Origin: an uncultured Acetobacteraceae bacterium
Lineage (GTDB): Bacteria; Pseudomonadota; Alphaproteobacteria; Acetobacterales; Acetobacteraceae
Length of the DNA stretch: 38,656 nt
Direction of reading: 5' to 3'
NCBI GenBank assembly: GCA_903847525.1
Contig: CAINEA010000533.1
Location: 1 to 38,656, forward strand
Part shown: in pieces, positions 3,179-6,035 of the stretch
Position numbering within the stretch: the stretch's first letter is position 1
Layout: the number at the start of each line of letters is the position of its first letter
Notes under the pieces: model-generated
What the model was told of the DNA's origin: nothing
The model's input: only the letters and a program-made list of their open reading frames with translations
Database searches by the model: none
Position numbers and translations under genes: made by a program

Positions 3179-4192
3179 TCATCGTACCCGTGGATCCAGC
3201 ATGCGGTAGATCATGTCCGCCAACAGGTTCAGCACGACATAGACCAGCCCAACCACCAAGGTGGCGCCCAGCACCGCATTCATATCCGCGTTCAGCAGCG
3301 ACACGGTCAGATACTGACCAAGACCCGGCCAGCTGAACACCGTCTCGGTGATTACCGCCCCCTCCAGCAGGCCGGCGTAGGTCAGCGCCAGCACCGTCAC
3401 CAGCCGCACCGCGATGTTGCCGAACGCATGCCGCCAGATAATGCGCGCCGCCGACAGGCCCTTCGCGCGCGCGGTGATGATGTACTCGCCCGACAGCGCA
3501 TCCAGCATGAACGCCCGCGTCATCCGCGCGATATAGGCGATGCTGAACCACGCCAGCACGCCGGCCGGCTGTGCCAGATGCGCCAGAGCATCCCGGAAAC
3601 TATCCCAGTCGCCCGCGATCATGCTGTCCACCGTCAGCAGGCCGGTATTTTCTGGAACCATGTCCTGAAACACCACGTCCGCCCGCCCGGTGCCCGGCGC
3701 CCAGCCCAGCCTGGCGTAGAACACCAGCAACGACAGCATCGCCAGCACGAACACCGGCACCGACTGTCCGGTCAGGCAGAACACCCGCACCACATTGTCC
3801 AGCCGCGATCCCTGCCGCACCGCCGCGAAAACACCCAACGGAATACCGATCAGCATGGCGATCAACATCGCGGTCGTCGCCAGTTCGATCGTGGCGGGAA
3901 AGAAATGCGCGATGTCCTCGGTCACCGGATGGGACGTCATCACCGAATTGCCGAGATCGCCATGCATCAACTGGGTGATGTAGCGAAAGAACTGGATAGG
4001 CAGAGGCCGATCCAGCCCCATCTCGATCCGCGTCCGCGCAATCACCTCCTCCGGCGCCCGATCCCCCAGAATCGCCAGCACCGGATCGATCGGCATCACC
4101 CGGCCGATCAGGAAAGTCACCAACGCCAACCCCAACAAGGTAATCGGCACCGTAACCACCGCCCCCGCCAACGCCCGAACGGACGCCCTCAT
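3179..4192 (-). CDS. Opp/Dpp-type ABC transporter permease (DppB-like)
   Basis: Inner-membrane permease of 337 aa, first of the four tightly packed transporter genes. It has an N-terminal membrane helix (VTVPITLLGLALVTFLIGR), the family segment RIEMGLDRPLPIQF, a periplasmic loop longer than in the homologue at 28947, an EAA-type loop near ARAKGLSAARIIWRHAFGN, and the ending NLLADMIYRMLDPRVR. The start MRASVRALAG at 4192 was chosen because the extra upstream residues in the same frame would come from the hairpin repeat at 4224-4420 and look nothing like the family. The inverted repeat lies between this gene and the binding-protein gene. Confidence 0.92.
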   Translation of the reverse strand: MRASVRALAGAVVTVPITLLGLALVTFLIGRVMPIDPVLAILGDRAPEEVIARTRIEMGLDRPLPIQFFRYITQLMHGDLGNSVMTSHPVTEDIAHFFPATIELATTAMLIAMLIGIPLGVFAAVRQGSRLDNVVRVFCLTGQSVPVFVLAMLSLLVFYARLGWAPGTGRADVVFQDMVPENTGLLTVDSMIAGDWDSFRDALAHLAQPAGVLAWFSIAYIARMTRAFMLDALSGEYIITARAKGLSAARIIWRHAFGNIAVRLVTVLALTYAGLLEGAVITETVFSWPGLGQYLTVSLLNADMNAVLGATLVVGLVYVVLNLLADMIYRMLDPRVR

Positions 4193-4223
4193 GCGGGGCG
4201 AAAGGCGGCTGCTGGAAAGAACC

Positions 4224-4420
4224 AGCAAGGCCAGGGGCTCTGCCCCTGCACCCCGCCAAAGGGCTGGGCCCTTTGGATACCCATGACATTTCTTAAGGAT
4301 TGGACGGGCAATACGGAGCTGCAACCACCACCGATGCCCGCCCAATCCTTAAGAAATAACCAGGAGTCCAGAGGCTCGCCTCTGGCGGGGGTCCAGGGGG
4401 CAGCGCCCCCTGGCCTTGCT
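4224..4420. repeat. Large inverted repeat built of two copies of a two-hairpin module
   Basis: Arms 4224-4310 and 4335-4420 are near-complementary over about 86 bases around a 24-base centre. Each arm also folds on itself twice. Left arm: CAGGGGC/GCCCCTG (4232-4248) and CCAAAGGGC/GCCCTTTGG (4256-4276). Right arm: CCAGAGGC/GCCTCTGG (4368-4385) and CCAGGGGGC/GCCCCCTGG (4393-4413). The stems differ in sequence between the arms but stay paired, so changes are compensatory. Both arms share the block TTTCTTAAGGATTGG, which flanks the centre. It resembles REP/BIME-like intergenic elements seen in Acetobacteraceae genomes. Lying between the binding-protein gene and its permeases, it may act as a partial terminator or as an mRNA 3' stabiliser, as the malE-malF REP does. 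No U-tract follows. Confidence 0.85.
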
Positions 4421-4448
4421 TGCCTTATCAGGCTCCAGTCTCCCCGCA

Positions 4449-6035
4449 TCAGGTCTTGAGGATGGGGGCGTAGTCGGTGAGGTCGGACATGGGGCCGACT
4501 TTGAAGCCGGAGACGCCTTTGCCCATGGTCGCGACTTCCTGCTGTTGCAGGATGAACGCGAACGGACTGCGATCCTGGTGGAGTTGCTGCATCTTCTCGT
4601 AGACGGCGATGCGCTTCTTGGTATCCAGTTCCTTGACGTTGGCGGCGACCATCTTGGTGAGTTCGGCATCCTGCCAGGAACTGCGCCAGGCCAGGGTCTT
4701 AAGCTTCGGGCTGTCGCCGTTATCCGGATTGTAGCAGAACGCCTGCGCGTTGGAGTTGGGGTCGAAGTAATCCGAGCCCCAGACCAGCAGCGCCAGCTGG
4801 TGCTGGCGGCCGCGGGTCTTGGTGATGACCTGCTTCTGCTCGCCCGCGAGCAGGGTGGCCTTGATGCCGATGGCGGCAAGGTTGGCCTGCACGGCCTGGG
4901 CGATATCGGCGTACGGCGCGGTGGAGATGTAGTCCAGCGTCACCTCAAACCCGTTGGGCAGGCCGGCCTGCAGCAGCAGGGTCTTCGCCTTGCCGATGGT
5001 CTTCTCGAACGGCTGGTCGGTCAGGGCGGCAGGCAGGCCCTTGGGCAGGAAGGCCTGGGATACCAGCCAGGTGTTCGGCACGATGTTCTTCTGGATGGCC
5101 GCATAATCGATCGCGTATTTGATCGCCTGGCGCACTTCCGGCTTGGCCAGGGCGGGATGGGTCTGGTTCATCGCCAGATACATCGAGGACGCCTTGGCGG
5201 AAGCCACCGGGGTGAATTCCTTCTTGCCGGCGATCGACTTCAGCTGCTCGGTCTCCAGGTTGCGCGCTATATCGATATCGCCCTTTTCCAGCGACAGCAG
5301 CTGCGCCGAAGGATCGGGGATGTGGCGGATGATCAGCCGCTTGGCGTGCGGCTTGACGGTAGAGTTGGGATTCGCCTCCAACGAGACGGCCTCGCTCGCC
5401 TTCCAGGATTTCACCTGGAACGGTCCGGACCCGGCGCTGTTGGTCTTCAACCAGCCGTTGCCCATGTCGCCGTCCTTGGCATTCGCCATGGCGAGCTTCT
5501 TTTCCACCACGCCGCCGATATTGGCCGACAGGCAGTACAGCACGAAGCTTGGAGCCTGGCTTTCCGGCAGGGTCATGACCACCTTGCCGCCCTCGTTGCG
5601 GATCAGCTTTTCGACATTGTCCTTGGTGTAGCCGAACTGGGTGATGATGAAGCCCGGCGTCTTGTTCAGGATCACCGCGCGCTGCAGCGAAAACACCACG
5701 TCGTCGGCCGTGACCGGCGCGCCGGAGGCGAATTTGGGGCCTGTTTTCAGCGTGAAGGTGAAGGTCAGTCCGTCCGGCGAGATGTCCCATTTCTGCGCCA
5801 GGTCGCCGGCGAGTTTGTCGGGGTTGGCGACCTCCGGCCGGACGAGGCGCTGATACACATTGCCGCCGATCTCATTGCCCGAGAACTCGAAGCTCTCCTG
5901 CGGATCGAGGCTGATGATGTCGTCGATCTGCTTGGCCATCACCACCACGTCTTTTGGCGTAGCGGCAAAGCCGGCGTTGACAGGGGCGGCGGCGATGGCG
6001 GCGGTGGTCGCCAACAGGGTGCGGCGGGTCAGCAT
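4449..6035 (-). CDS. Extracellular solute-binding protein, family 5 (DppA/OppA/NikA-like)
   Basis: Periplasmic receptor of the family-5 ABC importer encoded just downstream. The 528-aa precursor starts MLTRRTLLATTAAIAAAP. It has a twin-arginine-like TRRTLL followed by a hydrophobic stretch and a likely cleavage near NAGFA, so export by Tat is possible. Family features include the early LDPQESFEF segment, NVYQRLVRPE, WDISPDGLTFTFTLK, GAPVTADDVVFSLQRA and the later AIDYAAIQKNI region. A strong GGGAGA lies upstream of the ATG. It heads the set 6035-to-672. The ligand (dipeptide, oligopeptide, nickel chelate, glutathione or other) cannot be told from sequence alone. Confidence 0.92.
   Translation of the reverse strand: MLTRRTLLATTAAIAAAPVNAGFAATPKDVVVMAKQIDDIISLDPQESFEFSGNEIGGNVYQRLVRPEVANPDKLAGDLAQKWDISPDGLTFTFTLKTGPKFASGAPVTADDVVFSLQRAVILNKTPGFIITQFGYTKDNVEKLIRNEGGKVVMTLPESQAPSFVLYCLSANIGGVVEKKLAMANAKDGDMGNGWLKTNSAGSGPFQVKSWKASEAVSLEANPNSTVKPHAKRLIIRHIPDPSAQLLSLEKGDIDIARNLETEQLKSIAGKKEFTPVASAKASSMYLAMNQTHPALAKPEVRQAIKYAIDYAAIQKNIVPNTWLVSQAFLPKGLPAALTDQPFEKTIGKAKTLLLQAGLPNGFEVTLDYISTAPYADIAQAVQANLAAIGIKATLLAGEQKQVITKTRGRQHQLALLVWGSDYFDPNSNAQAFCYNPDNGDSPKLKTLAWRSSWQDAELTKMVAANVKELDTKKRIAVYEKMQQLHQDRSPFAFILQQQEVATMGKGVSGFKVGPMSDLTDYAPILKT

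Follow-up and report, generated by a model that had tools for sequence, protein, structure and literature searches.

A Dispersed Palindromic Repeat Family at Gene Ends in Acetobacteraceae, with Hairpins Followed by Mirrored Strands

Introduction

Within an ABC transporter locus of an Acetobacteraceae draft genome (6.28 Mb in 1081 contigs), a large palindrome separates the gene of a solute-binding protein from that of a permease. This raises the question of whether the palindrome is peculiar to this locus or belongs to a wider family, and of what its fold may do, either for the neighboring genes or for the persistence of the element itself. The window, i.e. the whole stretch of DNA analyzed here, is contig C533 of this genome with its 38,656 nucleotides. 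An earlier note, made from its letters alone, had described the palindrome as two inverted copies of a two-hairpin module, possibly of a mobile or REP-like kind.

Results

The Palindrome and Its Fold

The element occupies positions 4224–4420 (ends AGCAAGGCC ... GGCCTTGCT), as delimited by arm complementarity, repeat matches and fold, and its borders agree with near-identical copies in another genome, G121 (AAGGCC...GCCTTGCT). It lies 35 nt past the stop codon of the gene for a family-5 solute-binding protein (4449–6035, minus strand), which is upstream in the transcript, and 39 nt ahead of the start of the downstream ABC permease gene (3179–4192, minus strand). Profile matches to PF00496 (SBP_bac_5) and PF00528 (BPD_transp_1), respectively, bear out the gene context given in the earlier note. 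The closest match of the binding protein was found in an Acetobacteraceae MAG (79% identity), the genome of which belongs to the same genus (G001 = G174).

The pairing between the arms that had been claimed is borne out by complementarity at 14/14 positions of the outer arms (4224–4237 with 4407–4420) and at 22/23 positions of the inner arms (4288–4310 with 4335–4357). A segment of 216 nt including the whole element folds with −132 and −143 kcal/mol on the two strands (z −10.1 and −10.8), and none of the shuffled sequences folded as well on either strand, confirming that a fold with z about −10 on both strands is not due to chance. The two local hairpins per arm were likewise located. The left arm contains outer hairpin A (4232–4248, plus strand, CAGGGGC/GCCCCTG) and hairpin B (4256–4276, plus strand, CCAAAGGGC/GCCCTTTGG), while the right arm contains, on the minus strand, hairpin B (4368–4385, CCAGAGG/CCTCTGG) and outer hairpin A (4393–4413, CCAGGGGGC/GCCCCCTGG). 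These form the 2 pairs of adjacent hairpins observed in the window, as compared with 0.3 per shuffled window. Between the arms, inner stem C has a locus-specific sequence (left strand 4288–4310, right strand 4335–4357, plus strand, the latter assigned by arm complementarity) and encloses an apical loop at 4311–4334, deduced from the fold.

A Repeat Family of Acetobacteraceae

A blastn search of the source genome with the element returned 102 matching pieces. The covariance model suggested earlier was then built on one arm (R1; threshold E ≤ 0.01) and gave 97 arm matches in the same genome, mostly in inward-facing pairs about 140 bp apart and with many at contig ends, so that the elements probably break short-read assemblies and the copy counts are lower bounds. 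In the window the model recovers the right arm at 4363–4419 (minus strand, E 4.8e-25). The palindrome is therefore one member of a repeat family of about 200 bases.

Matches were present in 101 of 150 genomes of Acetobacteraceae (family f1) and in 6 of 289 genomes of a class-wide sample, the source genome counted among these 6; apart from the source genome, only family f35 exceeded a single match in that sample. Arm counts reach 101 in Roseomonas rosea DSM 14916, 58 in Falsiroseomonas stagni, 56 in F. algicola, 43 in Pararoseomonas baculiformis, 42 in R. aerilata, 22 in R. mucosa and 116 in G001. Genome G121 has 148 arm matches, including numerous 194-bp copies next to the ends of many genes that hardly differ from one another (0.91 identity on average between pairs, with some fully identical). 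No family members were found in the genomes of Bosea, Ancylobacter, Rhizobium, Azospirillum and Rahnella that were searched. A plasmid or phage origin was rejected, since the element has no match in plasmid and phage collections. Membership in a known RNA family was rejected too, for no Rfam family reaches its gathering score with the element and the weak matches to long-hairpin families (e.g. MIR856, 38.8 bits against a cut-off of 297) are due to chance.

Each half of the element runs from the end (GGAAGCAAGG) through hairpin A, a short C-rich stretch, hairpin B and another short stretch to the inner stem, and the other half mirrors this order. The conserved parts of the family are the ends AGCAAGG/CCTTGCT and the two outer hairpins of each arm; more precisely, it is the ends together with hairpin A that stay constant; hairpin B is variable and the inner stem differs in almost every copy of the source genome, its left strands being about 60% alike between copies while the stem within each copy is nearly fully paired. 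The earlier proposal of a fully conserved inner block acting as a recognition end does not survive this comparison: the inner stem is the most divergent part of the element, and the 15-base block (TTTCTTAAGGATTGG) occurs in the whole genome only within this copy, once per strand, which rules it out as a recognition end. The observation that equivalent stems differ in sequence and remain paired, on the other hand, is correct within the element and extends to different copies, in which both sides have changed at 14 of 45 consensus pairs (14 aligned copies of the source genome). Some arms carry an extra hairpin module (L042, L059 and L213). In four G121 copies (L289, L294, L298 and L305), the loop of a hairpin is the exact site of another foldable sequence (TCTCCCTCCGGAGCCATTCCAGCG...GCTGGAACC... 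in hairpin A, CCCCGCGGGCAAGATGCCCGCTACC...CGCGCGCCGGGC in hairpin B), as though such loops received insertions of small palindromes.

Dispersal, architecture and location at gene ends are shown by these data: the family consists of dispersed palindromes of Acetobacteraceae with many intergenic copies (97 arms in the source genome), most likely of a REP/BIME-like type. It is a new family of an already known kind, the small bacterial repeat, with a structural rule that is unusually clear.

A Third-Strand Rule

Behind each outer hairpin comes a short strand that mirrors, in register, the purine strand of that hairpin. Read on the opposite strand, the rule is that of a purine-motif antiparallel third strand, with A or T over A and G over G. 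Representative stems and followers are CCAGAGG..CCTCTGG-ACTCC, CCAAAGGGC..GCCCTTTGG-ATACCC, CTAAGGG..CCCTTAG-AACCC and CCGGGGATCG..CGATCCCCGG-GCCCCT, as well as AAGGA-AACCT and AAGGGA-AACCCT. All four hairpins of the window follow the rule in full: ACCCC (4250–4254, plus strand) stands over AGGGG of left hairpin A, ATACCC (4277–4282, plus strand) over AAAGGG of left hairpin B, ACTCC (4363–4367, minus strand) over AGAGG of right hairpin B and ACCCCC (4387–4392, minus strand) over AGGGGG of right hairpin A.

In fixed register, the match per stem type is 0.84 for hairpin A (24 types) and 0.72 for hairpin B (32 types), values that exceed the maxima of 0.76 and 0.66 obtained in 2000 trials with followers permuted among types, with the proviso that the types share descent and their counts are thus not fully independent. 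With the order of the follower reversed, the same register gives 0.56 and 0.52, and we consequently rejected Watson–Crick pairing of the spacer with the purine strand (direct order; 0.52–0.56 vs 0.72–0.84 for the mirror). Register-free longest-match scores do not separate mirror from direct order (117 against 113), because runs of C dominate them. Leaving out the first position, A or T is found at 178/230 A positions and G at 744/873 G positions. The match amounts to 0.87 in the arms of the source genome, vs 0.32 in other hairpins of the same loci and 0.38 in control hairpins from 80 loci of other genomes; overall, the controls comply at 31–38% of positions and the family arms at 87%.

The result proper is this correlation between stem and following strand, from which we infer that a triplex may form. 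The arms do present a hairpin and a third strand in the register of intrastrand triplexes (the 30-nt candidate sequence being GGGGGT-CCAGGGGGCAGCGCCCCCTGG), with stems shorter than most catalogued motifs. According to Holder et al. (2015, PMC4666352), RNA does not form triplexes of the purine motif; the rule, if real as a structure, would therefore point to DNA rather than mRNA. A recurrent insertion of about 20 nt (CCCATGCTTC...GTTTGGG) separates hairpin A from its third strand in L016, L033 and L037 of the source genome and in L250.

Gain, Loss and Flanking Inverted Repeats

Presence and absence of the element differ between close relatives. The junction orthologous to that of the window carries a single arm in a MAG of the same genus (L076) and no element in more distant relatives (e.g. 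L079–L082 and L084–L096), most of which have the permease start soon past the stop codon. Two other element sites of the source genome are without an element in G001. Three sites of G121 have elements also in its sister G470, and none was seen at these sites in the other members of the genus that were examined. Site S297 has paired flanks in both of these close relatives, and the element there points one way in G121 and the other way in G470.

The flanks of a given copy pair with each other, thus forming locus-specific inverted repeats. In the window these are CCTCATGCGGGG at 4187–4198, overlapping the permease start, and CCCCGCATCAGG at 4442–4453, overlapping the stop codon of the binding-protein gene; their score of 18 was reached by 1/2000 shuffles. 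Flank pairing in a mixed set of copies averages 7.2 vs 5.8 after permutation, with scores of at least 9 in 10/46 copies vs 1.0 expected. The signal is strongest in G121 (gaps allowed; mean 27.0 vs 11.4, permuted maximum 14.5), and in the source genome the mean is 15.2 vs 8.5, largely due to copy L012 (score 61), a near-perfect palindrome across both arms plus at least 11 nt of flank. Matches that place the right-hand repeat inside a gene are partly spurious, because a high GC content brings many open frames with it. At locus L291 of G121, the end VANLDV of a conserved gene and that of its convergent neighbor, HADLDM, are inverted repeats, as if one C-terminus had been copied from the other.

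Site S297 is informative on the origin of such flanks: relatives lacking the element conserve the 3′ end of the left gene, an inverted copy of which lies in the right flank of both G121 and G470. Insertion into pre-existing terminators was also considered as the source of the repeats, but at S297 an old left gene end with an inverted copy on the right fits copying better; elsewhere, empty sites gave no alignment in the intergenic part. The simplest reading is template switching, in which a new strand would fold into the hairpin of the element and be extended along the flank, and such footprints support intracellular folding of the element at the DNA level. Where palindromes are imperfect, template switching is known to produce compensatory changes in single events (PMC8794818, PMC7202029), and compensatory change alone is therefore no proof of selection. 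Accordingly, the earlier claim that such change means a fold kept in place of the sequence holds for the maintenance of pairing and is an overstatement where selection on the fold is concerned. The third-strand rule is left unexplained by template switching, which does not make mirror order.

Mobility

The family is not spread by a RAYT. The sole Y1_Tnp gene of the source genome is flanked by a REP of a different type, and Y1_Tnp is absent from the copy-rich genomes G001, G006, G016, G020, G025 and G029; moreover, no GTAG-type tetranucleotide was found at the hairpin foot, where copies have AAGG-CC. Hence, the repetitive nature, size, palindromy and intergenic place of the element agree with the REP-like character first attributed to it, while the recognition-end block and the RAYT partner have to be abandoned. 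This one RAYT-like Y1_Tnp gene of the source genome is located in L075 (1420–1980), with inverted REPs of its own alongside (GATAAGCGTAGCGCAATCCGCC / GGCGGATTGCGCTTCGCTTATC).

It is conceivable, if not favored, that the element is a MITE, i.e. a nonautonomous transposon moved by a transposase encoded elsewhere. Its terminal inverted repeats (AGCAAGG/CCTTGCT plus the outer hairpins), alike in all copies, would suit such a mode of spread, as would near-identical dispersed copies and the differences in occupancy between close relatives. However, direct repeats at target sites score 4.35 vs 4.39 after permutation (exact borders vary), the listed arm pairs of the source genome, G121 and G034 include neither an autonomous relative nor a longer copy whose arms enclose a gene, and RAYT is ruled out in several copy-rich genomes.

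Position Relative to Genes

Both neighbors could be called for 44 of the 53 full copies, giving 29 tandem, 14 convergent and 1 divergent pairs, vs 154, 26 and 28 in the loci of relatives, a background drawn from regions near one ABC operon that may be rich in tandem pairs. Between the stop codon and hairpin A the median distance is 14 nt (n = 61), as against 54 nt on the start side, and in convergent pairs hairpin A often lies about 10 nt from both stop codons. This place behind stop codons could merely reflect tolerated insertion.

Discussion

We lean slightly toward considering the element a REP/BIME-like unit of gene 3′ ends that works as a two-way barrier at mRNA ends, protecting or ending transcripts and here setting the level of the binding protein above that of the permease, as its place and stability suggest. 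The element would settle directly behind stop codons; in the binding-protein transcript, its stack of very stable hairpins would block 3′ exonucleases and let only part of the transcripts continue into the permease genes, leaving the binding protein in excess. REPs between malE and malF of Escherichia coli form the same kind of partial barrier, with an excess of the upstream binding protein. Our preference is no stronger than this because, according to Holder et al. (2015, PMC4666352), who cite Maher, the E. coli BoxC/PIT elements acted neither as terminators nor as promoters in vivo. The hairpins of the present element may also fold at the replication fork, where the DNA is single-stranded, perhaps with short intrastrand triplexes as caps, and prime template switching; this would keep stems paired and copy DNA of one flank, inverted, to the other.

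The element might act instead as a bidirectional intrinsic terminator, with the outer hairpin and the pyrimidine-rich CCTTGCTTCCTTC after it ending transcription from both sides. Convergent gene pairs, which are overrepresented and in which each end of the element lies about 10 nt from a stop codon, would fit this, and many copies have a GC-rich hairpin followed by TTGCTTCCTT. Nevertheless, we consider it doubtful, for a proper U-tract is lacking, the pattern scan gives just a weak unrelated match at the border and the window copy resides inside an apparent operon. A consensus scan detected no strong T-tract terminator at the element, and the hairpin followed by a UUGCUUCCUU-like tract in many copies falls below the scan threshold. 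Rather improbable, in our judgment, is a passive palindrome with no cellular role, the arms of which are perfected and enlarged outward by template switching while gene ends merely tolerate it. The flank repeats reaching into gene ends, the palindromic flanks of L012 and the single-event compensatory changes documented for template switching (PMC8794818, PMC7202029) all speak for such a history, yet template switching gives inverted or direct repeats rather than a third strand matched in register, and it explains neither dispersal to many loci nor the tight spacing to stop codons on both sides.

The third-strand rule invites the tentative suggestion that hairpin and third strand constitute a functional intrastrand triplex, which would stall replication or shape nucleoid DNA in a manner akin to BoxC/PIT/TM-ECO. 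Compliance with the purine motif across many stem types, and in full by all four window hairpins, is what one would expect of such an element, and TM-ECO likewise occurs in unlike inverted pairs (PMC4666352); against it, 5–6 triplets per hairpin are few for a stable triplex and the type-level counts are partly dependent through shared descent. With equal reserve, the intrastrand triplexes may be regarded as kept by selection, stem and third strand changing together across genera, so that a three-stranded DNA fold would be the conserved functional object at gene ends of the whole family.

Compared with known systems, the family resembles REP/BIME with RAYT in being made of short dispersed extragenic palindromes within operons and at gene 3′ ends, often as inverted pairs, but differs by having no GTAG-footed REP, several copy-rich genomes without RAYT, a length of about 200 bp and a long inner stem. 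Palindromes of the MITE type, such as NEMIS/Correia, ERIC, RIME and YPAL, are similarly foldable, intergenic and dispersed, with sizes of about 100–200 bp; in contrast to them, the present family shows no signal of target-site duplication and has a nested design of hairpins and third strands, besides showing no sequence relation to them within the scope of the searches, in which none of the Rfam families reached the gathering score. The closest parallel in design is BoxC/PIT/TM-ECO (Hoyne and Maher; Holder et al. 2015, PMC4666352), which also combines a GC-rich hairpin with an adjoining third strand, is intergenic and present in many copies, often in unlike inverted pairs, and has no known mobile partner. 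However, TM-ECO has 9-nt stems of nearly fixed sequence at no fixed distance from genes, whereas our family has 5–6 triplets, abuts stop codons and displays many different stem sequences, the third strand varying in concert with them, and a long inner stem flanked by two hairpins in each arm; read directly, the family hairpins do not match the TM-ECO consensus (CCCTCNCCC...GGGNGAGGG...GGGNGAGGG). Finally, as in quasi-palindromic hotspots of template switching (Ripley; Lovett; PMC7202029, PMC8794818), the palindromes are imperfect and would be perfected by copying one arm from the other, but here an inverted copy of flanking gene DNA is found as well, beyond a dispersed element.

Whether intrastrand triplexes have any meaning in living bacteria has been debatable ever since the discovery of PIT elements, as the known motifs hardly vary in sequence. 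The many stem types that covary with the following strand make this question accessible to comparison and to simple work with oligonucleotides and reporters. Natural footprints of template switching directed by hairpins are available in this family as well, among them a gene end copied in inverted form next to an element. Its copies may also be the reason for broken assemblies in Acetobacteraceae. Many contigs of G000, G016 and G082 terminate within or beside an arm.
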